Origin: a virus | Strand: one strand, 5' to 3' | Virus record (IMG/VR): IMGVR_UViG_3300035204_002457 | Coordinates: 1 to 21,738 of that record | DNA length: 21,738 nt | In this document: positions 4,315-21,358 of the stretch, one piece after another | How positions within the stretch are numbered: position 1 is the first letter of the stretch | Layout: each line of letters opens with the position of its first letter | Position numbers and translations under genes: made by a program | The notes under the pieces: generated by a model | Told to the model about the DNA's origin: nothing | What the model saw: only the letters and a program-made list of their open reading frames with translations | Database searches by the model: none

Positions 4315-4578
4315 ATGCCATTATCAGCAGCTTTATCATCACTAGAATCTGATATAGAATCAGCATATCAAACGTGCAAGTCCGACGGCTCAGAAGATGG
4401 AGCAGATTCAGATTCGGTAATTTCTCAATTAGCGCAAGATCTTGCAGACGCAGTACACGCCTATATGACTTCAGCGCTAGTAACAACTACTGTCACTGTT
4501 GATACCGGCCAAATGGACGCTGTTGGAGGTTCAACAATAACCGAGGGTTCTGGTGCAGGAACTGGAAATTTATCATAA
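4315..4578 (+). CDS. Small virion-like protein with one acidic helical unit
   Basis: This 87-residue protein begins with a helix (LSSLESDIESAYQTC), then a very acidic loop (SDGSEDGADSDS), a second helix (VISQLAQDLADAVHAYMTSA) and a beta strand (LVTTTVTVDTG), followed by a Gly/Ser/Thr-rich tail ending GTGNLS. The same unit occurs twice in the next gene. Proteins of this form (helix, LA-x-AI helix, 'SALV' strand, GSGTGTIS-type tail) are known to me near gp5/gp25 in marine T4-like phages, where they are annotated only as hypothetical or structural. GGAG at 4305-4308 gives a normal spacing to the ATG, and the gene starts two bases after the spike gene stops. Confidence 0.65.
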   Translation: MPLSAALSSLESDIESAYQTCKSDGSEDGADSDSVISQLAQDLADAVHAYMTSALVTTTVTVDTGQMDAVGGSTITEGSGAGTGNLS

Positions 4579-5073
4579 CGGAGAATTATAATGCCCCTAG
4601 CAGCAGGTCACCCAACTTTAAAAACCGATATTGAAGATGCTTATATAACTGCTAGAGACGACGGTTCCGAAGACGACGCCGATTCTGATGCTATAATTGC
4701 TCAGTTAGCAGAAGATATTGGCAATGCAGTTCATACCTACATGGAAACCGCCCTAGTTTCAACAACTGTGATAGTAGAGCCGGCTTCCAGTAATGCTTCT
4801 GGTTCTCCAGCTGCGACTGCTGTTCCAATAGCTTCTTATATAACTCCTGGTTCTGGAACCGGCACAGGCACAATTTCTTTTGAGGGCGGTGATGTAGACA
4901 CTCTGATTAGCGACATAGAAGCTGCTTTTATAACAGTTAGAGACGACGGCGCAGAAGATGAAGCCGATCCAGATGCAATTATTGCCACTTTAGCTACTGA
5001 TTTAAAAACAGCTATTGACACTTTTGCCCTAACTGCTTTAGTTGAAACTGACGTAACTGTTTTTCCAGGTCAA
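4327..5073 (+). repeat. Three diverged copies of a 60-residue coding unit across two genes
   Basis: The copies are at about 4327-4506, 4609-4788 and 4894-5073. Shared positions are DIE-x-A-(Y/F), DG-(S/A)-ED-x-AD-x-D, an I-x-x-LA-x-D helix and AL-V-x-T-x-V. The two copies in the second gene share the RDDG and IIA residues and are spaced by 285 bases. The first gene carries one unit plus its tail, so the second looks like a fused doublet of it. Confidence 0.8.
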
Positions 5074-5190
5074 ACGGTGTTTGGGTATATGGCTATTGCT
5101 GGTCCTGCTACAGTCCCTGTACCAGCGGTCAGCTTGGCAGGCACGGGATCAGGCGAAGGTGATCCCGGTAATAGCGAAGGTTTGTCATAA
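4591..5190 (+). CDS. Virion-like protein with two fused acidic helical units
   Basis: This 199-residue protein is two copies of the unit found alone in the preceding gene. Copy one covers residues about 7-66 (TDIEDAYITARDDGSEDDAD, then an IIAQLAEDIGNAVHTYM helix). Copy two covers about 102-161 (SDIEAAFITVRDDGAEDEAD, then IIATLATDLKTAIDTF). Each is followed by an Ala/Pro/Gly/Ser-rich linker of about 35 residues with GTGTGTIS or GTGSGEG. The protein has no Cys and is strongly acidic. GGAG at 4580-4583 precedes the ATG by 7 bases. Its place between the spike and gp25 suggests a small baseplate or spike-tip component. The acidic loop might bind cations, but it does not fit the canonical EF-hand spacing. 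Confidence 0.65.
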   Translation: MPLAAGHPTLKTDIEDAYITARDDGSEDDADSDAIIAQLAEDIGNAVHTYMETALVSTTVIVEPASSNASGSPAATAVPIASYITPGSGTGTGTISFEGGDVDTLISDIEAAFITVRDDGAEDEADPDAIIATLATDLKTAIDTFALTALVETDVTVFPGQTVFGYMAIAGPATVPVPAVSLAGTGSGEGDPGNSEGLS

Positions 5191-5238: not shown

Positions 5239-5286
5239 ATGATAGCAGGATATAAATCTTATGGCAGAACAGAACCAGAACTATAA
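5239..5286 (+). CDS. Possible 15-codon upstream reading frame overlapping gp25 start
   Basis: ATG 5239 has the best ribosome binding site in this gap, GAAGGA at 5224-5229, with a 9-base spacing. It encodes MIAGYKSYGRTEPEL and stops at 5284-5286, 23 bases inside gp25 in another frame. It could be a leader for translational coupling, a relic of an older gp25 N-terminus, or chance. Its YKSYGRT resembles the FQSVGET near the start of gp25 itself. The evidence is only positional. Confidence 0.3.
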   Translation: MIAGYKSYGRTEPEL

Positions 5287-5764
5287 AGTATATGATTTTC
5301 AATCCGTCGGCGAAACTTTAGAAGCCTATAGAGATAATAGAAGGTTTGGCACAGCGACTCCGGTACCAATTGGTATAAGAACTCCCATGGCTCTAGACAC
5401 GGGAGGAGGAGGGTTGTTTGTGATGCATACCGAAATGACCCAGCAAATAAAAGATAATTTTAAAAATCTTATTCTCACTAATCACGGCGATAGATTAGGA
5501 ATGTATGATTACGGAGCGAATCTTCAAGAACTCACTATGGAGCTTGGGTCTGAGTCTTTTGATACTGAAGCTATCAGAAGAATTAAAACGGCCGTTACAA
5601 AATATATGCCATATTTAAGTTTAGGTACTTTTGAGCCCGTCATTGATAGAGAAGCCACTACTGGCGGTATAACAAAAGTTGGTTTAAAAATTACTTATAC
5701 GATTCCATCGCTTGGAAGTGGTTTCCCACAACAAATGCAAGTATCACTATACGCGGGAGGATAA
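5261..5764 (+). CDS. gp25: Baseplate wedge protein gp25
   Basis: This 167-residue protein matches the gp25/gpW-like family, a conserved piece of contractile injection systems that helps join the baseplate wedge to the sheath. The family core is clear from about residue 60: IKDNFKNLILTNHGDRLGMY followed by DYGANLQEL, and a later alpha/beta region ending in the strands VGLKITYTIPS and MQVSLYAGG. T4 gp25 is 132 residues; the extra length here is an N-terminal arm (VYDFQSVGETLEAYRDNRRF, then PVPIGIRTPM), a form I associate with marine T4-like relatives. AGGA at 5247-5250 lies 10 bases before ATG 5261, a weaker site than the one feeding the upstream short frame. It is followed four bases later by gp6, the usual gene order. 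Confidence 0.92.
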   Translation: MAEQNQNYKVYDFQSVGETLEAYRDNRRFGTATPVPIGIRTPMALDTGGGGLFVMHTEMTQQIKDNFKNLILTNHGDRLGMYDYGANLQELTMELGSESFDTEAIRRIKTAVTKYMPYLSLGTFEPVIDREATTGGITKVGLKITYTIPSLGSGFPQQMQVSLYAGG

Positions 5765-5768
5765 TTAA

Positions 5769-7613
5769 ATGGCAACTTCAAATTCAGTATCTAAACTCAG
5801 CTCCAAGACTTATTTAGCAAAAGATTTTACTTCTTTTAGAGGCGAGCTAGTTACTTATGCAAAAAATTATTTTGCAAATCAGATTCAAGATTTTTCAGAA
5901 GCTGGTATTGGAGGAATGTTTGTTGAATTAGCGGCGTTTGTTGGTGATTCTATGTCATTTTATTTAGATCATCAGTTTAATGAACTGAATCCAGCAACTT
6001 CAGTTGAGATACGAAATATCGAAAGTCATGCTCGAAATGCCGGCGTTAAGATAACTGGTGCGGCGCCCGCGGTTGCTAAAGTTACTTTTTATATAGAAGT
6101 TCCAGCGACTACACTTTCCGATGGAACGTATTTTCCTGACACTAGCACGTTTCCAATAATAAAAGCCGGTACTGAATTAAGGTCTAACAGCGGCGGAATA
6201 TATTTCACGTCAACCGATGATGTAGATTTTGCTGAAGAGAGTACTGATGGTGTGCTATTATCTAGTTACTCTATTTCAAATACAGATAGTTCCGGAAATC
6301 CAACTCATTATATCGTTACAAAAGATCAAGATTGTATTTCTGGTCAGATAAAAAAAGACGAATTTAAGATAGGGACAGTTTTAAAGCCGTTTAGAAAAAT
6401 TACGTTAACCAGAACAGACGTGACTCAAATTATAAACGTAAAAGATCTTTCTGGAAACGAATACCATGAAGTGGAATCATTAACGCAAGACACCGTGTTC
6501 AAAAGAGTGCAAGTTTTAGATAACGAGCGCGATGATGTTTCTGACAACCTGGAAGTTATTCCTGCTCCATATCGATATATAACCCGCACAGACTTTACTA
6601 CACGATTAACTAAGCTCCAGTTTGGATCTGGTGATGCATCAACTACTGATGATGATATAATTCCCGATCCAAGTGATTTAGCTCTTCCATTATATGGAAA
6701 AAAAGTTTTTTCTAAATTTTCTTTAGACCCTAACAGCTTACTGAAAACGCACACACTTGGAATTTCTCCTGTTAACACTACTATATCTGTAGAGTATAGG
6801 CATGGTGGAGGATTAAGCCATAACGTACCTTCTGAGGGTATTAGAAATATATCTCAACTTAAAATAATGTTTCCAAAGCAGCCCACATCGGATATACAAG
6901 ATGCTGTTATTAAATCTTTAGATGTGAAAAATCAAAATCCTGCTTCCGGAGGATCTGCTACTTTGTCTTTAGAAGAATTAAGAAGCCTTATAAGTTCATC
7001 TCGAAATCAACAAAATAGAATAGTGACCCAGCAAGACTTGTTAGCTAGACTTTACACTTTGCCAGCAGTATTTGGCAGAGTATATAGAGCGGGTCTAAGG
7101 AAAAATGAAGAAAACCCACTATCTACAGAGCTTTACTTGTTGTGTAGAGACAAAGACGGCAAGCTACAAATTGCACCAGACGCCCTCAAGAAAAATCTAA
7201 GAGTCTATCTAAATGAATTTAGGCTTATATCAGACGCAATAGATATATTAGACGGCAGTGTCATAAATTACAAGATAAACTTTAGCATAATCTGCACACC
7301 TAGCTCTAATAAAAGCACTGTTTTAGCTAACGTAATAACCAGGATTAAAAAAGTTAGCGACCTAAAATTCTTTCAAATAGACCAGCCGGTAGTCGAAGCT
7401 GATGTTATAAATGCAATTATTAATACGCCTGGCGTTCTTTCAATGACATCCCTAGAGTTTAATAACGCGTTTGGTACAGTCGGTAGTTATACTTATTCTG
7501 ATATAGAGTTTGATATGACGGCAAATCTTTATAAGGGATTAATAATTGGAACACCAGGATCGATATTTGAGCTTAAGTATCCCGATTCGGATATTACTGG
7601 AACCGCGGAGTGA
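5769..7613 (+). CDS. gp6: Baseplate wedge protein gp6, baseplate-J-like
   Basis: This 614-residue protein is close in length to T4 gp6 (660). In T4, gp6 dimers form the continuous inner ring that holds the baseplate wedges together. The N-terminal region is typical of the family: KTYLAKDFTSFRGELVTYAK, then a conserved helix pair (GIGGMFVELAAFVGDSMSFY, LDHQFNELNPATSVEIRNI) and the HARNAGVKITGA turn. The middle part, about residues 120-350, is beta-rich. The later region contains QQDLLARLYTLPAVFGRVYR, the J-protein-like helical part with an 'LP..fG.v.ra' pattern, and closes with alternating strands and helices. GGAGGA at 5756-5761 is a strong ribosome binding site seven bases before the ATG. 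Confidence 0.9.
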   Translation: MATSNSVSKLSSKTYLAKDFTSFRGELVTYAKNYFANQIQDFSEAGIGGMFVELAAFVGDSMSFYLDHQFNELNPATSVEIRNIESHARNAGVKITGAAPAVAKVTFYIEVPATTLSDGTYFPDTSTFPIIKAGTELRSNSGGIYFTSTDDVDFAEESTDGVLLSSYSISNTDSSGNPTHYIVTKDQDCISGQIKKDEFKIGTVLKPFRKITLTRTDVTQIINVKDLSGNEYHEVESLTQDTVFKRVQVLDNERDDVSDNLEVIPAPYRYITRTDFTTRLTKLQFGSGDASTTDDDIIPDPSDLALPLYGKKVFSKFSLDPNSLLKTHTLGISPVNTTISVEYRHGGGLSHNVPSEGIRNISQLKIMFPKQPTSDIQDAVIKSLDVKNQNPASGGSATLSLEELRSLISSSRNQQNRIVTQQDLLARLYTLPAVFGRVYRAGLRKNEENPLSTELYLLCRDKDGKLQIAPDALKKNLRVYLNEFRLISDAIDILDGSVINYKINFSIICTPSSNKSTVLANVITRIKKVSDLKFFQIDQPVVEADVINAIINTPGVLSMTSLEFNNAFGTVGSYTYSDIEFDMTANLYKGLIIGTPGSIFELKYPDSDITGTAE

Positions 7614-7619
7614 TAAATC

Positions 7620-9185
7620 GTGTATTTGATATTAACTGCAAGTAAAGACACTTATATAACTAACAAAGTTATAGACAATACTTTTCGCGCTAAAGACGCA
7701 AATGTTGGAAGAGCGGGCACCATTGATATATTCAAGCTTTGGGACGAATCAACTTATCTTTCTGCCTCTACTAGAATAACTGCATCTGTTGGTGAAATTT
7801 CTAGAGGTCTTATAAAATTTGAATTTGACACAGTAAAAGCGCTAACAGCTTCTAATTTAGATTTAAACTCATCTAGATTCCAAGCTAGGCTTAGGCTTTT
7901 TGACATAATGGGCGGGCAAGCCACTCCTTCTAATTTTTACTTAATAACTTATCCGCTTTCTAAGTCTTTTGATGAGGGCGTTGGAAGAGACGTAGCGTCA
8001 TTCGGAGATTTAGATGTAGCTAATTTCATGACAGCGTCTGTAACGAATGGAACGCCGGCGATGTGGAATTTATCCGGAGCTAATGTTGGAGGGCTACTTG
8101 GTTCTGACGATCTAGATTATATTTCATCTGGCACCAGCGCATCTCCAGGGTTTTCAGCTTATATAGATTTTGGAGCTTCTCAATATTTTAAAAATGGAAA
8201 CGAAAATTTAGATATAGACATTACAAAATATGTAAGCGCGTCTATAGCTGGCCAGATTCCAGATTTCGGGCTGAGACTTTCATTCTCTGGTTCTGATTCT
8301 ACTGATCAAAAAACGAGGTTTGTAAAGAGATTTGCTTCTAGACATTCTTCTAATCTTTTGAAAGTACCACAGATACACGTTTCATGGGACGACAGCGTAG
8401 TAGATAATCACGAAGATTTTATTTTTGATACTAGCGGTTCTTTGTTTTTAAGAAATTATGTTAGAGGAGTTCCAACTAATTTAAAATCAGGATCTGATGC
8501 TAGCGCGATAACTGGCGATAATACCATTTTACTCAAGTTGCAAGTTCAAAGTTTTAATGAAATATTTACTGGATCTCAGCATACTGCAGGAACTGATGCG
8601 ACTCAAATAGCAGGTCTTTATTCTGCATCTTTTGCTATGTCTACTTATGATACCAGAACAGTAAATCAGTCTAATCATACTTTTGTGGATTTAATTGAAA
8701 AGAGCGGTTCAATAACTTTTAAAACATATTGGATCTCTGTAGATGAATCTATTGCTTACCACACTGGATCTTTAACGGTAAGGCCCTCGAGGAAAACTAC
8801 ATTTGAAAGGCAGCCGTCTGACTTGATGTTTAACTTCACTAATTTAGAGCCAGAATATAATAAAAATGACGATGTTTATCTAAATGTTTTTGTGGAAGAT
8901 TTGTCTACAGAAGACAAAGTTTATAAAATTCCATACTCAAAAAAGAGTATTAGCTTAAGTAAAGTTTACTACAGAATAAGAGAAGCTTCTACTGGCCAGA
9001 TAATGGTGCCGTTTGATGACTCTAGAGAAACTACAAAACTTTCTTCAGACAGCAATGGATTATCTTTTTATTTTAAAATGTCTAGCTTGCCAAAGGGCTT
9101 TGTTTATTATTTCGATTTGTTAGTAAAAGACTACGGAGAAAATAGAATATACAATGAGGCTAGCGGCAAATTTAAGGTAGTCTGA
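7620..9185 (+). CDS. Virion protein with DNRLRE-like N-terminal domain
   Basis: A 521-residue protein that starts with GTG; GGAG at 7607-7610 is 9 bases upstream. Residues about 1-270 resemble a DNRLRE-type beta-sandwich: ASKDTYITNKVID and NVGRAGTIDIFKLW at the start, SRGLIKFEFDTVKAL in the middle, then KRFASRH and VPQIHVSWDD at the end. The remaining 250 residues are beta-rich, perhaps Ig-like (FTNLEPEYNKNDDVYLNVFV). Ser/Gly/Thr are abundant and there are no Cys. It follows gp6 directly and overlaps the next large structural gene by one base, so it is probably an outer baseplate component. Many marine T4-like phages have a 'virion structural protein' of this size here; I know of no more exact name. 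Confidence 0.65.
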   Translation: MYLILTASKDTYITNKVIDNTFRAKDANVGRAGTIDIFKLWDESTYLSASTRITASVGEISRGLIKFEFDTVKALTASNLDLNSSRFQARLRLFDIMGGQATPSNFYLITYPLSKSFDEGVGRDVASFGDLDVANFMTASVTNGTPAMWNLSGANVGGLLGSDDLDYISSGTSASPGFSAYIDFGASQYFKNGNENLDIDITKYVSASIAGQIPDFGLRLSFSGSDSTDQKTRFVKRFASRHSSNLLKVPQIHVSWDDSVVDNHEDFIFDTSGSLFLRNYVRGVPTNLKSGSDASAITGDNTILLKLQVQSFNEIFTGSQHTAGTDATQIAGLYSASFAMSTYDTRTVNQSNHTFVDLIEKSGSITFKTYWISVDESIAYHTGSLTVRPSRKTTFERQPSDLMFNFTNLEPEYNKNDDVYLNVFVEDLSTEDKVYKIPYSKKSISLSKVYYRIREASTGQIMVPFDDSRETTKLSSDSNGLSFYFKMSSLPKGFVYYFDLLVKDYGENRIYNEASGKFKVV

Positions 9186-12100
9186 TGGCTAATACATTTT
9201 CAAATGGAAATCTTCTTTTTTCACCAACAATAATTCAGAGAGCTATCGATGGATCAGGCGCTGTTACTGATGCTACGCTTACAGATTATTCTGGCTCTAA
9301 TATTACCGGAAGCAATTCTTTTCGTTTTGACGAACCAGGCACTCCTTTTAAATCTACGCAGCAGATTCCGCTAGACTGGTCTAAATTTGAGAACCATACA
9401 TTTTTTAATTCTGCTGAATCTAAAGTAAATGTAGCGTTCGACACAATAATCAACTATTTTCCGTTTGACGGAACAAATGACGAAATTCAAACTTTCATGG
9501 ATGGTCTTAACGGTTGGGAAAAGCATGTTTTTGATAAATTTCCAAAACAAATCGGGTATCTCTGCATGTCCGGCACACTCCCTACAGAAAATCCAGAAGG
9601 AGGGTTCAACGCAGGCTTAGGCACATTTATACGAGTGCATGACGTAGCTGGGTCTTTGTATCCTTCGCTCTCTAAAGATACTAGCGGGTTAAACATAATA
9701 GACCCGGGTTTAAAATCTATATCGTTCCAATTTTGGATTCATTTGCCGCCAGAAGCGTGTAAAAACCAGGTTATATTCCAGAAACTTTCAGACACCAATC
9801 AAGGTTATTCGATGTTTGTTTCTGAATCTGCTGCTAATCGAGCTGACGTAGTTTTTATAGCGTCTAGCGGGTCGAATGCGATAACTGCAAGCTATAACAT
9901 TCCAAAAGATGAAATGTTACATATTTCTGCTAATTTTGATAGAGAATCCACAGGCCTATCAAGTTTGAAAATTTTTAAAACTGGCAGTTTAGTAGCTTCT
10001 TCTTCTTATAGCACAAGCTTTGGACTGATGGATTTTCAGTCGGATCCGTTGTTAATCGGATCTGGTGCTGCGCACGACATGGGTTCTTTAGGGACCGGAA
10101 TATTTACTCCAGAAGTCACTTTAAGCGGTTGTTTAGATGATTTTAGATGCTATCACGGCGGAAGGACTTCTAGCGCCATAAAATCAAATTACTTATCGGA
10201 CGCTTTTCCTACTAGCAGTTTAAGACTTTATCTCAAGTTTAATGAAGCTTCTGGATCTTATGCGAATAATTCTGTAGTTTTAGATTCTTCTGGATTTTCT
10301 TTGCATTCGCATATAAGCAACTTTCATTCTTCGTCAAGAGATTATAAACTGGGTTCTCCACACCAGTGGATGTCGCTAGAAAGGTCTGAAATTAATCCGG
10401 TTTTATTTCCTGGAAACGCTGACGTGCTTTCATTTAACCAGCTCTTGTTAGCGTCTGCGTCGCAATACGATAATAATAATCCAAATTTAATAACTAAATT
10501 AATTCCAGAGCATTATCTTTTGGAGGCCGATCTAGAAGAGGGTTTTGAAGACATTTATGCTGGAACTGGAGATGACTATAGCTATAGTATAGATTTCCCA
10601 GGCGGTGGAAGAATTGGCCAACCGCAAATTATAGCTTCGTTGTTGTTTACTTGGGCTAAATTTTTCGATGAAATAAAACTGTTTACTGATCAATTTGGAA
10701 ATCTGCTAAGAATAGATTATGATGATTCTAATACAGTGGCTTCTCACATGTTGCCATTTTTTAGTAAATACTATGGGTTTGTTTTACCAAATAATTTTTC
10801 TAACGCTTCTTATGCTCAATATTTACTGGGCGAAAACTTGGAGAAAGATCCGGCCATAGCGGCGTCTAGTTTATATAATGTGCAGTCGGAGATATGGAGA
10901 AGAATATTAGTAAACCTGAGCTCTATTATTGAGTCTAAAGGTACGCTATTCGCCATCAAGTCTGTTATGAGAGCAGCAGGAATAAATCCGGATTCTATGT
11001 TTAGATTTAGAGAATTCGGCGGCTCTAGGACAATAACTACAGACGATGCCCGCCGGAGTAGGAGTGAAGTAGCTTCTCAACTTTGGTTATCTTCTAGTAA
11101 AGAAAGAATAATTTCTCCCTATCTTTCTTCTTCTAGAAAAGCACCTGGATTTCCCTATGCCTCTAACCCAACGCTACCAAGAAGAAGTGACGGGTTATTA
11201 ACTAGTGGTTCTTGGACGTACGAGGGCTTATATCAGTTTGATTTTCGAAACACAAGTAATCAACCTCTAACACAGAGTTTAATTAGATTTTGGACGACCG
11301 GCTCTTGGGGCGTTGCTGGTCAAGGTCCCGGCGCTTTAGTATCTAATTTAATAGCTTATGGAACCGGTAGCAAGGGTAATGTTACTGGATCTTTAAAATT
11401 ATTTTTGAGACCAGGCCCTGAAGACAACGATCCCGTTATGAAATTAGTGCTTACGGGAGTTAATATCTTTGATCAAGATCGTTGGCACGTTTCTTTTGGA
11501 AGAAACGTTGGTTCTCCAACTGGATCCTTGGCTACTGCATCTTACTTTATTAGGGCAGCAAGGGCAACAAATGGCGATATCGCCGAGTTCTATCAAACTT
11601 CTTCTATTTTTGGTTTAGGTGATCGCGGCAGTTTAGTATTCAATACTTCTTCAGACGACTATAACGCTTCTGGCTCTTATTTTGAGTTTGGCGGAAAATC
11701 TACTTCACAAGCCCTAGATACTTCTGGCAATAAATTTTTAAATGCTTCTAGTATCATAACTGATGCAGACGCTAGAAATACATCTTTATCTGCAAAAGTT
11801 TCTGGCGTGAGATTCTGGACAAAAGCTTTAACTTCTAAAGAAACTAAAGAGCACGCTAGAAACTTTAAGAGTGTAGGCGTTGAAGATCCGCAAGTTAATT
11901 TCAACTTCGTTACATCTATTTCTGGCTCTTGGGAGAGATTAAGGATAGATGCAAGTTTGGACCAGCTCGTAACTAAATCAGACTCTTCTGGAGAATTGAG
12001 CGTTTTTGATTTTTCGCAAAACTCATTTTTCTTAACAGGCTCTGGGTTTGAATTGTCTAAGCAAGTAATTAACCCAGCATTATTTAGATACACTATCCTC

Positions 12101-12661
12101 GATCCCTCTTTTGGAGAAAGAAGTGCCGAAAATAAGATAAGGGTAAGAGGGTTTCAAAAAGATTTGAATATCCAAGAATTCAACACTCTTAAATCTCCTG
12201 TAAGACAGATAGAGCCGGGACAACCCACTCTAGATGATTCTAGATTCAGCATAGAAGTTTCTGCAGTTGGAGCTCTTAACGAAGACATAGTTAACATATT
12301 GGCTGGACTCGATTGGTTAGATAGTGCAATAGGGAATCCTGAGCTACAGTTTGCTTCTGATTATCCAGCGCTTAGAAGATTAAGAGAGGTTTATTTTCAC
12401 CGTCTGACAGATAAAGTTAATTTTAAGAATTTGTTTCTTTTTTATAAGTGGTTTGATGATTCTCTTTCTATTATAATTGAAAGATTAATTCCGAGAACTA
12501 CAAAATATATGGGAATTAATTTCGTTATCGAATCTCATTTCTTAGAGAGACCAAAATTTAGAAATATGAATAATAACATTTATTTATCTGCTGCAGATAG
12601 AAGAGGAATAAACGACGAGCTGCTGATGGCAGTTTTGAGCGGATTCCTTAAGAGGTATTGA
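9185..12661 (+). CDS. Large LamG-containing baseplate protein, possible gp7 counterpart
   Basis: A 1158-residue protein starting in a TGATG overlap. A first concanavalin/LamG-like domain lies at about residues 165-355: KSISFQFWIHLPPEACK, a run of strands, then SGCLDDFRCYHGGR and SLRLYLKFNEASGSY. A second, less clear one spans about 680-900, with DRWHVSFGRN near 760 and GVRFWTKALTSKETKEHARN near 872. Between them, about residues 380-640 are helical (SIIESKGTLFAIKSVMRAAG). The C-terminal 200 residues are mixed helix, including REVYFHRLTDKVNFKNLFLF. T4 gp7 is 1032 residues and occupies the same slot after gp6, so this may be its counterpart, but I see no direct sequence match to gp7. LamG domains commonly bind carbohydrate, so contact with the host surface is likely. 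Confidence 0.62.
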   Translation: MANTFSNGNLLFSPTIIQRAIDGSGAVTDATLTDYSGSNITGSNSFRFDEPGTPFKSTQQIPLDWSKFENHTFFNSAESKVNVAFDTIINYFPFDGTNDEIQTFMDGLNGWEKHVFDKFPKQIGYLCMSGTLPTENPEGGFNAGLGTFIRVHDVAGSLYPSLSKDTSGLNIIDPGLKSISFQFWIHLPPEACKNQVIFQKLSDTNQGYSMFVSESAANRADVVFIASSGSNAITASYNIPKDEMLHISANFDRESTGLSSLKIFKTGSLVASSSYSTSFGLMDFQSDPLLIGSGAAHDMGSLGTGIFTPEVTLSGCLDDFRCYHGGRTSSAIKSNYLSDAFPTSSLRLYLKFNEASGSYANNSVVLDSSGFSLHSHISNFHSSSRDYKLGSPHQWMSLERSEINPVLFPGNADVLSFNQLLLASASQYDNNNPNLITKLIPEHYLLEADLEEGFEDIYAGTGDDYSYSIDFPGGGRIGQPQIIASLLFTWAKFFDEIKLFTDQFGNLLRIDYDDSNTVASHMLPFFSKYYGFVLPNNFSNASYAQYLLGENLEKDPAIAASSLYNVQSEIWRRILVNLSSIIESKGTLFAIKSVMRAAGINPDSMFRFREFGGSRTITTDDARRSRSEVASQLWLSSSKERIISPYLSSSRKAPGFPYASNPTLPRRSDGLLTSGSWTYEGLYQFDFRNTSNQPLTQSLIRFWTTGSWGVAGQGPGALVSNLIAYGTGSKGNVTGSLKLFLRPGPEDNDPVMKLVLTGVNIFDQDRWHVSFGRNVGSPTGSLATASYFIRAARATNGDIAEFYQTSSIFGLGDRGSLVFNTSSDDYNASGSYFEFGGKSTSQALDTSGNKFLNASSIITDADARNTSLSAKVSGVRFWTKALTSKETKEHARNFKSVGVEDPQVNFNFVTSISGSWERLRIDASLDQLVTKSDSSGELSVFDFSQNSFFLTGSGFELSKQVINPALFRYTILDPSFGERSAENKIRVRGFQKDLNIQEFNTLKSPVRQIEPGQPTLDDSRFSIEVSAVGALNEDIVNILAGLDWLDSAIGNPELQFASDYPALRRLREVYFHRLTDKVNFKNLFLFYKWFDDSLSIIIERLIPRTTKYMGINFVIESHFLERPKFRNMNNNIYLSAADRRGINDELLMAVLSGFLKRY

Positions 12662-13608
12662 TGGCACATCCAGACTATTCAAAAGTAAGAATGACAGTAG
12701 TTCCAGCTCTAAGTGAGTCTTTTCCTTATATACAGGGGGCCTCTGTAAAATCTTCTTATTGGACCGCAAGAACGCTTCCAGCTTTGGGCAGAGGTCCAGA
12801 TAAACTATTTTTCAGCTCTTCTGCCGGTATATTCAATGTATCAGACAAACAATATTTCGACGATTGTATAGTTGGGAAAATTGCTGTTGTCGGCGAAAGC
12901 ATTCAAGCTGAAATGAGTTCTGAAGCTGGTAAACTAGAGACCAGATTTGCGTATGATTACATAGGATATACTTGGGGAATACCAGATAACGATCCAATAA
13001 GAACCGAGCCATATAGAGACAAAAATTATTTTAATCCAGTCCAGTATTTGATTAATTCTGCATCTATGACGTGGCCAGTGGTTTTAGAAGATCCTGCTGC
13101 TGTAGATACACTAGATTACAACGGCGTACTTGAACCGCTGACTATTAGAACTCGTGTTGGGATGTCCAGCACATTTGTTGGAGACCACTTAGATCCTGAG
13201 CCGCATTGCATTAGGGGCGTTTTTGCTGGTGGATATGCAGAAGAACCTTATCGTAGAAGCAGTTTGATAACTCATTATATAGAACCTGATGATTCCAATA
13301 GAAATTATCCGTTTAGCTATGTTGTAGATTGGAGGATATACGAGGGTTTTTCTCGACACGTTCCAGACTCTACATACACTGCTAACAACAACAAAAGAAT
13401 CAAACCGTTTCATGAAACAACTATAAATGAAATAGTTTTCGCAGAGATTTCCGATGTTCCGATGCAAAATTATTTTATCCATAACGTCACTTCTGCCTCT
13501 TTGGATAGTCGACCTTCTCTAGGAGCAAAAACTCTTGGGTGCGGGCACACTTATGAAAACTGTATTTTTGGTACAGACTCTGTGTCTTACGGAGGCTTGT
13601 TGAAATGA
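12661..13608 (+). CDS. Virion structural protein, possible gp8-position protein
   Basis: This protein has 315 residues from ATG 12661, which is coupled to the previous gene by TGATG; AGAGG at 12651-12655 is the likely ribosome binding site. A TTG at 12658 would add one residue. The sequence is beta-rich and aromatic, with no signal peptide, membrane segment or coiled coil. Distinctive stretches are the start AHPDYSKVRMTVVPALSESF, RFAYDYIGYTWGIPDNDP and the C-terminal GAKTLGCGHTYENCIFGTD. It ends in an ATGA overlap with the giant protein gene, so the two are translationally coupled and may assemble together. T4 gp8 (334 residues) occupies a similar place and size, but no sequence match is evident. 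Function is inferred from context only. Confidence 0.5.
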   Translation: MAHPDYSKVRMTVVPALSESFPYIQGASVKSSYWTARTLPALGRGPDKLFFSSSAGIFNVSDKQYFDDCIVGKIAVVGESIQAEMSSEAGKLETRFAYDYIGYTWGIPDNDPIRTEPYRDKNYFNPVQYLINSASMTWPVVLEDPAAVDTLDYNGVLEPLTIRTRVGMSSTFVGDHLDPEPHCIRGVFAGGYAEEPYRRSSLITHYIEPDDSNRNYPFSYVVDWRIYEGFSRHVPDSTYTANNNKRIKPFHETTINEIVFAEISDVPMQNYFIHNVTSASLDSRPSLGAKTLGCGHTYENCIFGTDSVSYGGLLK

Positions 13609-16600
13609 GAAAAGACTATAGGATAAAAATTCCGTATGACTTGCAACGAGCATTTGGGGATTACCACCAGCCGCAAAATTTAAAGCATTATTTTAGGCTG
13701 TATTCTGCTGATGATAACTCTATAGATTCGTCCCTTTCAAATATAGCAGAACCAATCGGGTACCCTATTGTCGGCAGTGATATTTCTACGCTTAGGACTT
13801 CTCCGTTTAATAAGCTTGTAAGATATACTAGCGACATAAAAGCTACAGATGGTTCTTATTATCGAGTAGCTTGGGGAGGTACTAACTATAACGCGTTTAG
13901 AAACGACGGGAATACTTTCACGATCGGAATGTGGGTCCAAATTCCAGTGATTGGAACTGGATCTCCAGATAATGAGCACGTAATTTTCAACAAGGTAAAA
14001 GCAGGTACCTTGGCTGGCAACTGGGGACAGGGAGGAATTGAAGAAAGCCAGAATTTAGGCGAGATGGCTATCACCTATATCAGCGCGGGAAACAACTTTA
14101 AATTTCAGTGGGTAGGAAAAAATCTTGCAGATAACAATTATTACATAATCAACGTTCCAACTTTTGATCTTAATCTTCTTGATAACGGACCATACAGGAG
14201 CGGTGACTGGATATATTTGGCTGTTACAATGAGCCATTCATTGCCAGTCTCTGCTAACACACTAATAGAAAGCATCGTAACTTTTTATGTCAATGGAAAA
14301 GATGCCACGGATAAATCTTCTATTACTGGAGGTGATGCAGTTGGTGGTATAAAAATCTCTCCAGATTTTCAAGCAGCACAAAATTATGGCGATATTTTGA
14401 TAGGCCGCGGCCTTGGAGATACGAACCCGCCTTCTAGTAATGATAATACTGCTTGTAGAGTATATGATTTAGCTATATGGGATGCAGCATTAGAACAACC
14501 AGCCATTGCTTCTATTTGGGAAAGATCAAAATTCTTTGAAGGCACCGGATTTTTAAGTCTACCTCCAAGAGTTCAGCTAAAAAAAGAAGTGTCTACCACG
14601 CCGGTTTATTTTGCTAGCAAAAACACCCCAATAGTTCAGGGACAAGATAGGCTCAAGGGGTTTGATGACAGCAGGACTATTACCTTTGAAACTGAGCGTA
14701 AAGTTAATCTACAATATCCTCTGGGTATACCATATGACGGCGGTTCACTTGGTACCGGAAGTTATGATCCCAATGATTTAACTTCTTGTTTATTAGCAAC
14801 CCCCAATAAATTACCAGACATATGGGCTCCAGGAATTAAAAACTTTGGAATTTTGCAAAATTACTATGGGCCATCGCAAATTAGCGAGGGCCAGCCAAGA
14901 TTCTTGCCGTTTAACGACGCTTTAGTGTTGCCAAATGGCGATGGCAATTTTTATGGTGGCACAACATCTATAGGCGGATTTAATTCAAAGCTCCGCGACA
15001 AGATCCAGGTAACAATAGAGCTTCCAATGAACGAGACAGCAACAGTCTCAAGATATTCAGCTAAATGGGATGCAATTGGGCCTACTACTCCAAACTTAGT
15101 GGAGGATCTAAAGCCTAACGATCCAACTGCAATTAATCCTCACTATGATGCTGAAGGAGAATTTAAAGAACAAAATTTAACTGGATTTCTATACTATAAT
15201 AAATCGCGTGGTGCTTGGGAGCAAAAGGGTATTGCTGACGTCGTTACTGGTCAGTATGTGAAAGCAATAGGATATATCAAGGGCGATCAAAATATTGAAG
15301 CAAACGGTGTTACCTTTACATTAATAAACGCTGATAATATACCGCAAGTTTTTATCTTTGATACTAGCGTAACTACTTGCGACGGCACTTGGGACGCTCC
15401 CGGAACAAAGCGGGTGCTTGTTGGACTATCTGGATTAGCTGCTGTAGATGTGGATAAAGCAGCTTCTAGAATGGCTAGCGCAATTAATGGAGCTGGCGTG
15501 GTAGAAGCTTCTGGAGATTTGGGTTGGTCTGCAACTTCAGGTGAATTTACTGCTAAATCTACAGTGACAATAATCCAAAGCGGCCCGGGCAAAGTCGGCA
15601 ATACTGTAATATCTCAGACTGGTGGGATGACCCTTACTAATTTTTCCGGAGGATCCACCGGTTATTCTTACGACGAAATAGCCCAAGAGCTTAAAGCCTC
15701 TAATTTAACTTTCGCTCAAGATTCTACTAGAAGAATTGTGGGGTCTAATTTAATTACTTCGGGCGTGTCGCACGTAATGAGGCTATTTTATCCTGGAGGT
15801 TGTACGGATGGACAAGGTCAATACGCAGCGGGTGGCCTTGAAGGAAATGGCGTAGACGTTGGAGTTTTCGATACACAACTAGCTGCCAACGTAGGCCATC
15901 CAATGTGCACCAATTATGGCCCTAACGCATATCAGTATTTTGCTACTGGCAGCCAAGTCTTAAAGATGAAAGACTATATTTCTGAGCCATTCTTGCTGGA
16001 AAAAGTTATATTAGAAATTCCAGACACTGTTGCAAGAAAAATATATGACTTCGAAGAAGAGCTAGACTCTCCCACAGCCGCTAGACCTCAAGACGATTAT
16101 GTCTTCTTCCTCATGAGACAAGCAAGAAGATACCCTGGTATGCCAGCTCAATTTTACGGTCCCAATGGCCAACCGCTATCTTCCGATAGCGAGAAAGATA
16201 AGATTAGGTTTGAAGTATCTTCTAGCGTAAGATATTTGATATGCTCTGGAAACGCTTGTTTTTATAACGATGAAAGAAGAGTACCGGGCAAAATACCATA
16301 CGATGAAGAAGAAAATCCAACTTTTTCTCCATGGGAACCCAGAAATTCGCCAGCTTTTGTTCATAATTTTTCCAGTTCGATTGGTACTGCTCACCAGCAC
16401 GTAATGGTCCGGTCAGGATCGATAATGCTTCCTATGATCCCAGCAGTCCCAAGCAGAAAAATGTTGGGGAATTATATATTGCCAACTTGGGATGGGTCTT
16501 CAGCGCTTTATATAACCCAGTCTGGGGGTGATGTCACCTTATTCCTCACCGGAAGCACGGTTGCTGGTGACCAGGGAGCTTGCTACCCAGGAACAGTTCA

Positions 16601-19511
16601 GGCTTTCTGGCCTGGTGGAACCTCAACGCTTCCACTTTCTGGCGCATTGAGCGGGAGTAGATCCGATGTAGTGACAGCAAATCTTCACTCTGCAAAAGAA
16701 GATACTACCGATCCTTATGGCTATCTTAGAAACACTGTGGGTGAAGCAACGTACAATGAAAGAACGTTTTATGAGATAAATTCTTATGTTGATCCTGGTT
16801 TTTCGAAGCTGAGCGCGCAAGCAATCGATTCAAGGACATTTAAGTTCTTTGGGGCTGGAGGGTCTAAAAAAGGTCTGAACGTCGCTACAGTCTCCGGACT
16901 TTCTGGGTCTTGGCAAGCCGGTTTTCCAGATGATCTTTCTGATTTAGACGCAGATTCACCTTATTTGCTATTTCCTGAAGATGAACTAGTTCTAGGTCTA
17001 GACGCCGCGCTTGGATGGACTGCTACTATGGCTTCTGGAATAACGGCCAAAGCTTTAAAGAGCGATAACATGAGCTACGTAGATCCTAAGCTCATTGTCG
17101 GGGCGAACAATTTAACTGGGTCACTTTTAAGACTTGAGCGCGGCCAACCGATGACTTTGCGGCTCTACGGGTCTTTAGTAAAAGATCAAGTAGAAGCACC
17201 ATCTTATCCAAAATCAGATATAACTCAACCAGATATCACAGATGTAATAATTGGTTCTCATACTTTAGATGAGTATGATATATCTTCTCTTATGGAAAAT
17301 TCTGGTTCTTATAGAGAGCGCCTCTTCACCGGATCTTTAACGAATCCACCGACCGGTCCTTCTAGAGTGGAAAATAAAGGAGAGGGAATTTATTCTTCTG
17401 CTGTCAATGCTTCTCCATTTTACTGGAGTGGAAATAGTATTGCCTGGCAACAAGGCGCCGGCGCCCATGTGGAAGTAATGCGTCCAGATTGGTCTACGGT
17501 TATAACGTGCTCTATTCCATCATCGCTTACTGGCTTTACTTACGACTCAACTCACCCAACCCCCGGCGCGCCACTCGATAAAATCTACATTAGATTTTGG
17601 CCAAATTTAGGCGGGATCCCGAACCCGCCTGCCCCCGGACCGCTCGGTATTTATTACAATTTTTATACAGTCCAAAATTGGGATCATATCACTGACGGCG
17701 GCGGTGGGCCGTATCAAATTCGGCCAGATGAAATCTTTATATGGCAGCCAAGCAAAACCGATATGCCCCCATGGGACGCTTACAGTGGAATTCCTGAAGT
17801 TTACTTTTCCCATTTTATATCTTATTTGATTAACGGGGCGGGATATTCATGGGGGATGAACTATTATATAAAATACGGAACTAGCGTTGGTGGAGTGTAC
17901 GGCGGTGGACTGCGCCTGCTCGGGATACTCGACTCAGGGCCGCTCCTCGCCGCCGTAGATGGCAACCAGTATAGCCCATACGACGGAATTCCAGGATTAA
18001 GCGCAACATATTCAGAATATGGCAAGGTGACAATAAGCGTCACTGGGGATCCAGTTGACGGAAACAAGGTGAATTTTATCGAAGGCAGGGTAGATGACAC
18101 TTATAACAATTCATCAACAAGGGTGACTCCCGGAATAGTAGCTGCGGCAGAAGTGACCGGCTCGCAGGGGACTCCTACTGCAGACTACCCCGCGTTATTT
18201 ACTGCCATTGATGGTGGAGCGCAGAGTTTGGGCGGCGGATTAGTTGAGCTCAATGCAGTTCGAGAAGTTGCAGCAACTACTTCTCGCGGAAATATGGGAG
18301 AATATGGTTCTTTCAATAGATTTTTAACTTTCCCGTGCAGCACAGAAAAATATTTTGATACAGCAGTTCCATTCTTAGAGGAAATATGGGCATGTCTCGA
18401 CAGAAAACCGCTAAAGTTTGATATATTGGATATATCCGGAACAGGGATCCCCGGCGGTTATGATAAATTTGAATTATTAATTTATGGTATAACGGTTGGA
18501 AAATATGCTCTGGGTACTGGACCAGGTGGAGATGGGACCGGCCTTTCGGATATTGGAAGTCAAGACCCATTTTCTGCAGATTGGTGGGCCGGATTCCCGT
18601 TTGAACCAAGGTATGCAGTCAGAAAAAATGACCAAGGTATGTCTCAATCGACAAGGAGAACTTTCGGTAGCCAGGCTGTTACTGATTCAGAGGGTCGTAT
18701 AGCTGCCGCGCTCTATTGGATAACTAACGATACTTATGCTGGCTGGGGGCAGGGATATACTCATACTGGCAGTATACAGCCCGCGGCAGTCAGCGGTAGC
18801 TTTGGTTGGGATTTCCAAGATTTAGTAGGGGGTCCAGGTACAACTATTGGTAAAAAGACTTCAACTTGGGGCAATGCTCAGATCGGTCTCGTTGCTACTA
18901 TGGATGAACAGACATTTGGTTTAAATCCTTCTTATTCAGATCTTGCAAAATCAAGCCTAAAAGTATTTTATGGGGCTGGCGACGGGCTTGGCAGTTTGGT
19001 AACTAACAGCCCAGAAGATTATTTGTATCCGACGTCAGAGCAATATGCTGGTATCGATGGTAAAGCAGATTCGAATGGATATTATCCAAACTATTATAAA
19101 ATCTTTAGAAGGTCTAGAAAACCAAGGGGCTGGAAGTATGGTCTATTAAACGCACTGCCACAGTACACCAACATTACTTTTAGATCTGACCATTATGGTC
19201 AATTTAGAGATATGCTGGAGATTCGACCCTACGGAGTGTTTACTTGGGCAAACAGCAGCCTAGAGAATAATTATGACTTAGGGCCTGTAGTGGTGGGATT
19301 TCAAGAGCCAATGTTCTTACAGTCAAACCCAGGTATTATAGTGACAAAAGATCCAGTATCGACTAGATCAGGAAACTTATCTATGTTTGCAACTTCATCC
19401 TTGCCGTTTTTCGATGAATGTGATGGAGTTTATGGAAAATATCCATTTGGAAGAGATAGGCCTGAAGAAATTAAGACTGAAGAGTTTGAAATCTACGTAG
19501 AAACTACATAA
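13605..19511 (+). CDS. Giant LamG-containing virion protein, mosaic
   Basis: A 1968-residue protein, the largest here. GGAGG at 13591-13595 is 9 bases before the ATG. A LamG-like domain occupies about residues 100-300 (FTIGMWVQIPV, SGDWIYLAVTMS, CRVYDLAIWDAALEQPAIAS). Residues about 552-690 form an apparent inserted beta-domain (GVTFTLINADNIPQVFIFDT ... AINGAG ... STVTIIQSGPGKVGN), splitting a region that continues with SYDEIAQELKASNLTF. A possible relative of it lies at about 1300-1545 (YLINGAG ... GKVTISVTGDPVDGN) in a GC-rich stretch. The C-terminal 400 residues are another conserved-looking core, with RKPRGWKYGLLNALPQ and SDHYGQFRDMLEIRPYG. No transmembrane segment is seen. I infer an outer baseplate or receptor-binding role from the LamG domain and the position upstream of the tail fibre. 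Confidence 0.6.
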   Translation: MRKDYRIKIPYDLQRAFGDYHQPQNLKHYFRLYSADDNSIDSSLSNIAEPIGYPIVGSDISTLRTSPFNKLVRYTSDIKATDGSYYRVAWGGTNYNAFRNDGNTFTIGMWVQIPVIGTGSPDNEHVIFNKVKAGTLAGNWGQGGIEESQNLGEMAITYISAGNNFKFQWVGKNLADNNYYIINVPTFDLNLLDNGPYRSGDWIYLAVTMSHSLPVSANTLIESIVTFYVNGKDATDKSSITGGDAVGGIKISPDFQAAQNYGDILIGRGLGDTNPPSSNDNTACRVYDLAIWDAALEQPAIASIWERSKFFEGTGFLSLPPRVQLKKEVSTTPVYFASKNTPIVQGQDRLKGFDDSRTITFETERKVNLQYPLGIPYDGGSLGTGSYDPNDLTSCLLATPNKLPDIWAPGIKNFGILQNYYGPSQISEGQPRFLPFNDALVLPNGDGNFYGGTTSIGGFNSKLRDKIQVTIELPMNETATVSRYSAKWDAIGPTTPNLVEDLKPNDPTAINPHYDAEGEFKEQNLTGFLYYNKSRGAWEQKGIADVVTGQYVKAIGYIKGDQNIEANGVTFTLINADNIPQVFIFDTSVTTCDGTWDAPGTKRVLVGLSGLAAVDVDKAASRMASAINGAGVVEASGDLGWSATSGEFTAKSTVTIIQSGPGKVGNTVISQTGGMTLTNFSGGSTGYSYDEIAQELKASNLTFAQDSTRRIVGSNLITSGVSHVMRLFYPGGCTDGQGQYAAGGLEGNGVDVGVFDTQLAANVGHPMCTNYGPNAYQYFATGSQVLKMKDYISEPFLLEKVILEIPDTVARKIYDFEEELDSPTAARPQDDYVFFLMRQARRYPGMPAQFYGPNGQPLSSDSEKDKIRFEVSSSVRYLICSGNACFYNDERRVPGKIPYDEEENPTFSPWEPRNSPAFVHNFSSSIGTAHQHVMVRSGSIMLPMIPAVPSRKMLGNYILPTWDGSSALYITQSGGDVTLFLTGSTVAGDQGACYPGTVQAFWPGGTSTLPLSGALSGSRSDVVTANLHSAKEDTTDPYGYLRNTVGEATYNERTFYEINSYVDPGFSKLSAQAIDSRTFKFFGAGGSKKGLNVATVSGLSGSWQAGFPDDLSDLDADSPYLLFPEDELVLGLDAALGWTATMASGITAKALKSDNMSYVDPKLIVGANNLTGSLLRLERGQPMTLRLYGSLVKDQVEAPSYPKSDITQPDITDVIIGSHTLDEYDISSLMENSGSYRERLFTGSLTNPPTGPSRVENKGEGIYSSAVNASPFYWSGNSIAWQQGAGAHVEVMRPDWSTVITCSIPSSLTGFTYDSTHPTPGAPLDKIYIRFWPNLGGIPNPPAPGPLGIYYNFYTVQNWDHITDGGGGPYQIRPDEIFIWQPSKTDMPPWDAYSGIPEVYFSHFISYLINGAGYSWGMNYYIKYGTSVGGVYGGGLRLLGILDSGPLLAAVDGNQYSPYDGIPGLSATYSEYGKVTISVTGDPVDGNKVNFIEGRVDDTYNNSSTRVTPGIVAAAEVTGSQGTPTADYPALFTAIDGGAQSLGGGLVELNAVREVAATTSRGNMGEYGSFNRFLTFPCSTEKYFDTAVPFLEEIWACLDRKPLKFDILDISGTGIPGGYDKFELLIYGITVGKYALGTGPGGDGTGLSDIGSQDPFSADWWAGFPFEPRYAVRKNDQGMSQSTRRTFGSQAVTDSEGRIAAALYWITNDTYAGWGQGYTHTGSIQPAAVSGSFGWDFQDLVGGPGTTIGKKTSTWGNAQIGLVATMDEQTFGLNPSYSDLAKSSLKVFYGAGDGLGSLVTNSPEDYLYPTSEQYAGIDGKADSNGYYPNYYKIFRRSRKPRGWKYGLLNALPQYTNITFRSDHYGQFRDMLEIRPYGVFTWANSSLENNYDLGPVVVGFQEPMFLQSNPGIIVTKDPVSTRSGNLSMFATSSLPFFDECDGVYGKYPFGRDRPEEIKTEEFEIYVETT
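17440..18240 (+). other. GC-rich island inside the giant virion gene
   Basis: Hand counts of 60-base rows here give about 53% (17581), 50% (17701), 40% (17761), 65% (17881), 55% (17941) and 63% (18121) GC. Ordinary rows nearby and elsewhere give about 30-32% (15121, 7801). The island codes for Gly/Pro-rich sequence (PNPPAPGPLG, GGVYGGGLRLLG) at residues about 1280-1545 and stays in frame. It may be a recombined, externally acquired module. Smaller rises are at 15361 (57%) and 16501-16620 (53-57%). Confidence 0.6.
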
Positions 19512-19522
19512 AGAGAGTTGTT

Positions 19523-21358
19523 GTGGCTAAGTACAAAGTAGATAATGCTCAAGTTAAAAAGACTAACCAGGTAAGCGTAAGAAATAGAAAAACTGGTGAG
19601 ATTTCTTCTAGTGTTCTTACTAAGAACACCCAGGTTGGTAGCCCGGGGCAAACAACAACTCAGCCGACTTTTAAGACATATGGAAACTTAAAGGCTTATT
19701 CTGGATTATCTGGTTCGCTCCAGCAGTTAACAGATGGCACCGATTATTTAATAGCTGGCGCTGGAATAACAGTTCAAAAGAATACAAATGGGTCTATGAC
19801 CATCACTGCGGGTGCCATATCCCCCGCGAGTGCCCTTACTTTTGGTAATGGATTTGACCCCTACAATACCTCTTACAATGGCACAGCGGCTACACCGATA
19901 GCCATTGGTGCAGAATCTAATAAGGGTTTAGGTGTTTCTTCTTCTGGCATTAAGCTGGATGTTACTAATTTAAGTACCACTGTCTCGCCCACGACATCTT
20001 ACGAAATTATAGTTGCAGACGGTGTAAACGTATATCGCTCTACTTTAAACAATGTTTTAAGCCTTGGAGTTTCTTCTGGGATTACATTAAACAATCCAGT
20101 AACAATAGGGCATGGACTTGTAGATACTGGAAATTCTCCAGCAGAGACTTCTTATAATAATAGCACAGCAGTGACTTTGGCGATAGAGCCAGAAGCCAAT
20201 AAAGGGCTTTCTGTCAACGCGGTTGGATTAAGAATAGACCCATCCACCTTAACATCAGTAACGGTAGATGCTGCAGATAAAGTGCTGATAGGCGATGTTA
20301 ACGATAGTGATGCTATAAAATATGTAACCGCTCAATCTATAGCTAATTTGGCGTCTGTTGGTACGTTGCCCCACTCGCTAGCTGTTGGAAATGGTTTGAG
20401 TCCATTTGGATCAAGTTTTAATGGAGCTGCAGCAATAGCGCTTTCAGTATCACCATCAGACGCAACAATAGCTGTAGATGCTTCTGGAATAAGCGTATCA
20501 AAAGTTCCAAACTCTTTAAACAGTGGAGACGGAATTTCTGCATTAAGCTTTGATGGATCATCAATGGCAACAGTATCTGTAGAGGCTCCTGTAAACAGTG
20601 GTTTAAACTCTAAAGCAAACGGTTTATATCTAGAGCTGTCTAATTTACCAGACGCGACTTTTAATGGAAATGACTATCTTCCATTTTATGATTACAGTGG
20701 AGGAACAACCGCGGTTGCAAAATCCACCATTAATTCATTCAAGTCGGCATTTATAGATACTGCGGTAGAAGCTTCGCGCGCGCTCGGGACTCCTTATAAT
20801 TTAACGGAAGGTACTGGTATTGCTTCTTTTACGTTTAATGGAGCATCTGCGCAACAAGTATCTATAGACACCACTCTCGTTCCAATGAAAGGCGAGCTGA
20901 ACGGTAAGTCTTATTTAGTTGCTGGGTCTGGAATGACTATAGTTTCAGCCTCAGATGGACAAATAACCCTATCTTCAGCTGGTGGTGGAGGCGGCGTCGG
21001 TTCTGATGCACCAATTGTATCTTGGGAATCAGACACGTCTTTAACGAATGAAAGAATTGTAACTTCGTCTGCTGGGTTCAGTATAGTAAATGACGGCGCT
21101 AATTTAATTATGGACACTGATCCTAGAAAAGTTTCATACCGCCTTCCTTCTGGGCAATCTTCTGGGTCTCCTTTGACTATTCCAAATGCGAGATTCGATG
21201 ATAATTCTTATGACAATAACAAGACTGATGTATATTTAAATGGTGTAATGCTGATATCTGGTTCACTAGACGATTATAGCCTTGTTGGAGATCAAAATTC
21301 TGTAATTTTTAATTTCGATCTTGTTGAATCTGATACTATCTTAATTAAGTTCACGTAG
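19523..21358 (+). CDS. Repeat-built tail fibre protein
   Basis: A 611-residue protein with a GTG start; GAGAG at 19512-19516 is a modest ribosome binding site 6 bases upstream. After a basic N-terminus (MAKYKVDNAQVKK), two copies of a known marine-phage motif appear: GTDYLIAGAGITVQKNTNG near residue 73 and KSYLVAGSGMTIVSASDG near 463. Between them, five hinge units (for example FGNGFDPYNTSYNG, VGNGLSPFGSSFNG) alternate with 'snkGL..GI.ld' strands and with three 'YEIIVADGVNVYRSTLNN'-type units. The C-terminus is a compact beta domain (DVYLNGVMLISGSLDDYSLV ... DTILIKFT). This is the usual build of T4-like fibre shafts with a C-terminal tip, so trimeric fibre assembly is likely. Which fibre (long, short or baseplate-linked) cannot be told. 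Confidence 0.78.
   Translation: MAKYKVDNAQVKKTNQVSVRNRKTGEISSSVLTKNTQVGSPGQTTTQPTFKTYGNLKAYSGLSGSLQQLTDGTDYLIAGAGITVQKNTNGSMTITAGAISPASALTFGNGFDPYNTSYNGTAATPIAIGAESNKGLGVSSSGIKLDVTNLSTTVSPTTSYEIIVADGVNVYRSTLNNVLSLGVSSGITLNNPVTIGHGLVDTGNSPAETSYNNSTAVTLAIEPEANKGLSVNAVGLRIDPSTLTSVTVDAADKVLIGDVNDSDAIKYVTAQSIANLASVGTLPHSLAVGNGLSPFGSSFNGAAAIALSVSPSDATIAVDASGISVSKVPNSLNSGDGISALSFDGSSMATVSVEAPVNSGLNSKANGLYLELSNLPDATFNGNDYLPFYDYSGGTTAVAKSTINSFKSAFIDTAVEASRALGTPYNLTEGTGIASFTFNGASAQQVSIDTTLVPMKGELNGKSYLVAGSGMTIVSASDGQITLSSAGGGGGVGSDAPIVSWESDTSLTNERIVTSSAGFSIVNDGANLIMDTDPRKVSYRLPSGQSSGSPLTIPNARFDDNSYDNNKTDVYLNGVMLISGSLDDYSLVGDQNSVIFNFDLVESDTILIKFT
19838..20872 (+). repeat. Degenerate fibre-shaft repeats
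   Basis: Hinge units start near nt 19838, 20096, 20378, 20519 and 20801 (G-x-G-(F/L/I) followed by (Y/F)-(N/D)-(G/N) and a (T/S/A)-V strand). The 'D-x-(I/L)-(I/P)' strand units lie near 20000, 20270 and 20660. The order hinge, GL/GI strand, D-strand gives a composite unit of roughly 90-95 residues, the fourth and fifth copies being shortened. Confidence 0.7.

Follow-up and report, generated by a model that had tools for sequence, protein, structure and literature searches.

The window analysed here is a viral record of 21,738 nt, in which a single open reading frame (ORF) at 13605..19511 on the plus strand encodes a giant virion-associated protein of 1968 aa (P0001). The earlier note had placed the gene at these positions and had pointed out four short motifs in its product, all of which are present as described: AINGAG at residue 626, STVTIIQSGPGKVGN at residue 652, YLINGAG at residue 1407, and GKVTISVTGDPVDGN at residue 1473. 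On the same strand, the upstream genes include a baseplate wedge gp25-like gene (5261..5764; phrog_43 at 3.5e-5, with Pfam GPW_gp25 at 1.9e-4 lying below the cut-off), a gp6/J-like baseplate wedge subunit gene (5769..7613; phrog_219 at 1.1e-5, and 33% identity to the baseplate wedge protein of Flavobacterium phage immuto), and genes for a 521-aa tail protein (7620..9185), an 1158-aa LamG-containing tail protein (9185..12661; Pfam Laminin_G_3 at 36 bits, above the cut-off), and a 316-aa neighbour of the giant protein (12658..13608). Because the upstream genes comprise gp25-like and gp6-like wedge genes together with the 1158-aa Laminin_G_3 protein, the window is assigned to the baseplate region of a contractile tail. 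The two wedge genes occur in the same order as in the T4-like baseplate wedge cluster, whereas no PDB relative of the giant protein's core is detectable, and PHROGs contains no match to the 1158-, 521-, or 316-aa genes.

Several other features accompany these genes. Adjoining the baseplate genes, the stretch at 104-1285 is glycosyltransferase family 4-like, with many sub-threshold NCBIfam glycosyltransferase matches (the best at 2.2e-7), and the 239-aa protein encoded at 1574-2293 may resemble a T4 gp55-like late sigma factor. Two adjoining ORFs at 4315-5190 contain three tandem near-repeats of one unit (MPLSAALSSLESDIESAYQT.../MPLAAGHPTLKTDIEDAYIT.../VDTLISDIEAAFITVRDDGAEDEADPD...). Downstream of the giant gene, a 611-aa protein (19523-21358) with repeated segments of the type SYNGTAATPIAIGAESNKGLGVSSSGIKLD matches no family in Pfam or PHROGs and is likely a fibre or adhesin.

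Searches of Pfam, PHROGs, NCBIfam, and 50,697 GenBank phages gave no match to the giant protein. Single-sequence searches with either the whole protein or the module described below identified no relative in Pfam, PHROGs, the GenBank phages, or the PDB, and no close one in IMG/VR. Relatives were collected by using the upstream 1158-aa gene as an anchor, and a search of IMG/VR yielded 80 loci (individual loci are designated by L numbers); in approximately 50 of these, homologues of the giant protein adjoin the 1158-aa gene in the same gene position and possess a homologous core. Segment HMMs resolve a core common to these roughly 50 related viral contigs, consisting of N2 (residues 353-497; 14661..15095), core3 (residues 717-953; 15753..16463), core4 (residues 1057-1252; 16773..17360), C5 (residues 1567-1670; 18303..18614), and C6 (residues 1786-1941; 18960..19427, also aligned directly), all on the plus strand and separated by joints that are hypervariable in length. 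A profile search of the core against the PDB found no relative, and no core homologue was found in the three searched GenBank phages that have a gp6 relative. The core is preceded by an N-terminal region (residues 1-326; 13605..14582, plus strand) whose HMM is common to L083 and L088. An N-terminal LamG-like domain had been proposed for this protein, and the proposal stands only transitively, through homologues: no Pfam Laminin_G_3 match falls in the N-terminus of the window protein itself, whereas the regions of L088 and L083 matched by its HMM do so with E-values of 1.8e-5 and 0.0013, although the Laminin_G_3 scores of the homologous N-terminal regions (19-25 bits) lie below the curated cut-off of 27.6.

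In many relatives the core is encoded not by one gene but by two or three adjacent genes, with breaks inside N2 and, at no fewer than two different points, inside core4, which is the two-gene split point in many of them. The breaks take the form of an overlapping stop and start, a short overlap, or a one-base gap (L020 17259/17261, L036 11083/11077, L040 17212/17206, L028 11933/11930, L048 17610/17607, and L059 16446/16443), and the split core pieces must presumably reassemble. The joints of the same core also carry other payloads in relatives, namely a BNR repeat-like stretch (L020 17801-19530; E 1e-3) and an F5/8 type C-like stretch (L061 15420-16112; E 1.3e-4), both below the cut-off.

Region 1 of the window protein (residues 552-689; 15258..15671, plus strand) is a true insertion in the joint between N2 and core3. 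The closest relative spanning it, L008, shares 40% identity with the window protein before region 1 and 49% after it, and its sequence passes directly from window residue ~554 to ~690. At 214 aa, the window's joint exceeds the 79-aa joint of L008 by 135 aa, which is the length of the module. The interruption of a sequence that then resumes, suspected earlier from the letters alone, is therefore borne out by a homologue from which region 1 is cleanly missing, and the borders suggested at that stage (552-690) prove nearly residue-exact when compared with the independent HMM envelope of 552-686.

Iterated HMM searches place region 1 in a domain family of about 113 residues, with the consensus ATITFTG.P..GETITIISTDGTSKTYTAKA...ATSLKAAIEAANGHNGKITVS...GTLTLTQATAGTAGNTTITSTL.NVT..NFTGG; the window copy is matched over residues 552-684/686 with 49.9-51 bits (iE 6.6e-14). 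The family is absent from Pfam, PHROGs, and the 50,697 GenBank phages, and a scan of bacterial genomes with one 8-residue pattern, a probe of low sensitivity, gave no occurrence of the module. Two further scans for the family added 31 and 62 loci. In the 182 fetched loci, which include some overlapping fetches, there are 201 family hits in 98 ORFs; in a reduced set, from which repeat fetches of the same contigs were left out where recognised, 89 copies are found in 41 proteins, with 1-12 copies per protein. Some members possess long internal insertions.

The module is spread over several kinds of protein. Four carriers, in L106, L110, L113, and L115, are tail sheath proteins (phrog_23, E ~1e-60) that bear it at four different positions of the chain, and another carrier is a tail-fibre-like protein. 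Eight small proteins of 165-213 aa, each composed for the most part of one module, belong to two or more families distinguished by their N-termini (MTKRTKTELA... and MAKRGYRGKHP...); they are found at L090 7848-8462, L098 7812-8453, and L101 7830-8330 as well as in L104, L108, L109, L111, and L112. Clean in-frame insertion also occurs in neighbouring tail genes of relatives: in L007 and L002 a single module lies at residue ~53 of the homologue of the 316-aa neighbour, with none there in the window or L008, and the homologue of the 521-aa gene bears one copy in L005. Modules are gained or lost between relatives as well, as L087 has two extra whole modules relative to L088 within a gene (another copy of the upstream gene) over which the two share 79% nucleotide identity. 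No target-site repeats are evident by eye at the L087/L088 module borders, where the nucleotide alignments are ragged near the gaps.

Evidence on the fold comes from a sibling copy in L101 rather than from the window copy, which, at the head of a 15-sequence alignment, gave a poor model (pLDDT 46) that was not used. The AlphaFold model of the L101 copy, built with 42 sequences, reached a pLDDT of 92.9 and a pTM of 0.87, and it shows strands, a 13-residue helix at positions 53-65, and two more long strands. In a Foldseek comparison of this model with the PDB, contractile tail sheaths rank on top, with A-1(L) (8kee) at E 5.7e-4 accompanied by Milano, PhiTE (9cba; TM 0.65, rmsd 2.7), XM1, and 7-7-1, while a flagellin and tail tubular proteins appear among the lower matches. 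Among predicted viral proteins, the same model matches marine phage proteins, baseplate-J-like proteins, and sheath proteins. At the sequence level, the family HMM recognises residues 89-201 of the Milano sheath marginally (14 bits, iE 0.007), hhalign aligns the family to residues 106-181 of the same protein, and hhalign finds nothing in the A-1(L) sheath. From the Foldseek ranking on the one hand and the weak Milano HMM and hhalign matches on the other, the predicted link to tail sheaths is graded as good in fold and marginal in sequence. The Milano HMM borders nearly coincide with the external sheath extension domain of gp20, defined as 91-203 by the authors of that structure (PMC10811340). 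Likewise, the insertion domain of XM1 sheath gp6 is similar to FliD D3 (PMC10457771), which parallels the flagellin among the fold matches of the module. Both the sheath domains and the module are insertions in conserved virion proteins; however, the module here is part of a giant tail protein, and the family to which it belongs extends across many protein types, often in multiple copies, with the sheath proteins carrying family members other than the window copy.

Region 2 (residues ~1263-1550; 17391..18254, plus strand) is a second insertion, located in the joint between core4 and C5. In the window this joint is 312 aa long, compared with 4-55 aa across the approximately 45 other loci that were measured. 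The flanks continue in the alignment on either side, so the earlier proposal that this region also interrupts a resuming sequence holds; with region 1 absent from L008 and the second joint short elsewhere, each of the two regions is missing from homologues at or near the borders originally drawn. Only the first ~45 aa of region 2 are clearly common with L008, whose sequence ends soon afterwards, and the remainder has no relative in any locus scanned. Third-codon-position GC content is higher in region 2 (0.45) than elsewhere in the gene (0.30-0.34), which fits a recent foreign origin without proving one.

These observations leave several alternatives to be weighed. Since a single close relative extends across region 1, the case for insertion rather than loss depends on the wider pattern, and region 1 could in principle be ancestral and have been deleted in L008. 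This is very unlikely, because the N2-core3 joint is at most ~50 aa in most other loci and family members sit at a wide range of positions in unrelated genes, among them the adjacent gene in close relatives. An assembly artefact as the source of the presence/absence pattern might be suspected on the ground that all relatives are uncultured metagenomic contigs; it deserves hardly any weight, as independent contigs agree (L007 and L002 share the same neighbour-gene insertion, and L017 and L088 are concordant) and the open reading frames are unbroken throughout. Regions 1 and 2 might also be diverged copies of one module, with a long insertion separating the motifs of region 2. The shared order of an INGAG-like motif followed by a G..GN motif, from which the earlier note had tentatively derived such kinship, would agree with this, as would the long internal insertions of some family members. 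The comparison nevertheless failed: Smith-Waterman alignment of residues 552-690 with 1300-1545 scores 38, a value reached by 209 of 1000 shuffled sequences, and the best alignment leaves the INGAG motifs unpaired. With filters off, the family HMM gave no hit in region 2 and did no better there than on shuffled controls, deep module profiles found nothing in region 2 of either the window or L008, and hhalign returned a probability of 0.1. Moreover, the motifs are short and not clearly kept in L008. Common descent of the two regions is thus unlikely, and it was rejected as unsupported in view of the shuffle-level score and the failed profile comparisons. The picture of a conserved core carrying inserted modules survives as a core with two insertions but not as one bearing two modules of the same kind; no sequence relationship between the inserted region 2 and region 1 is detectable.

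Taken together, the data favour, with a probability of roughly 80%, a large scaffold of a contractile-tailed phage, proximal to the baseplate or at the tail periphery, whose permissive linkers gain, lose, and swap accessory domains, with region 1 belonging to the sheath-external-fold family and region 2 representing a second payload. In such an arrangement, the core domains would form the scaffold at the baseplate or tail periphery, and the joints connecting them would tolerate independently folding domains that can be gained, lost, or exchanged. Region 1 would fold alone, and a module foldable on its own could therefore enter a surface joint in frame and leave the core undisturbed, whereas region 2 would be a second, unrelated-looking payload in another joint. 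Like the related sheath domain, the inserted domains would be located on the exterior of the particle, and the fold and protein context of the module both point to surface exposure. It thus looks like an exchangeable surface part, and regions 1 and 2 are most likely exchangeable, surface-exposed accessory domains that would serve host contact or particle stability.

The benefit of these domains might be an additional weak contact with the host surface or a reinforcement of the virion, and both stability and adsorption have been proposed for additional sheath domains (PMC9230969). A purely structural role, in which the inserted domains act as stabilisers or spacers within the virion and never touch the host, is a serious contender that falls a little short of even odds. 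The predicted fold of the module is that of the external domain of sheath proteins, and tail stabilisation has been suggested as a function of additional sheath domains (PMC9230969), both of which agree with such a role. Against it, the presence of the module differs even between near relatives, and it is therefore dispensable; in addition, the weak F5/8 type C and BNR matches, found in the same kind of joints in relatives, lean slightly towards surface contact. For the exchangeable accessory domains favoured here, a part in changing host contact is plausible.

Accessory domains of virions and the shuffling of domains among tail proteins are already known (PMC8718954, PMC9230969, PMC10684548). 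Ig-like virion domains (Fraser et al. 2006) are described as optional, promiscuous, and often dispensable additions to diverse virion proteins for which weak binding to the cell surface has been proposed (PMC8718954, PMC9230969), and to that extent the module resembles them. It differs, however, in consisting of strands and a central helix instead of an Ig sandwich and in being inserted within chains rather than appended to them; in the L101 model the 13-residue helix separates strand pairs, and the module matches no Pfam Ig family. Similarly, ongoing domain shuffling has been reported for phage receptor-binding and tail proteins in a study that used ECOD domains (PMC10684548), and the module is likewise shuffled among tail proteins, whereas its family, which is absent from Pfam and PHROGs, extends into the sheath as well. 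The novelty lies in an uncatalogued promiscuous family of predicted sheath-external fold in several protein types, together with a giant scaffold whose joints serve as insertion sites. It is possible, though less likely than not, that this one family constitutes a common exchangeable currency of the whole outer surface in many environmental tailed phages, with copies being inserted, amplified, and removed in the sheath, the baseplate-proximal scaffold, fibres, and small proteins, and that it has an origin in common with the external domain of the solved sheaths.

Discussion of virion accessory domains usually centres on Ig-like ones. The present family adds a different domain, distributed over tail proteins of several kinds, and connects the sheath's external domain with a mobile family. 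A profile of the family would annotate many giant tail proteins of environmental phages that are currently labelled hypothetical. As the module is gained and lost between near relatives, it offers an independent handle on how the outer surface of these phages is remodelled without rebuilding the machine.
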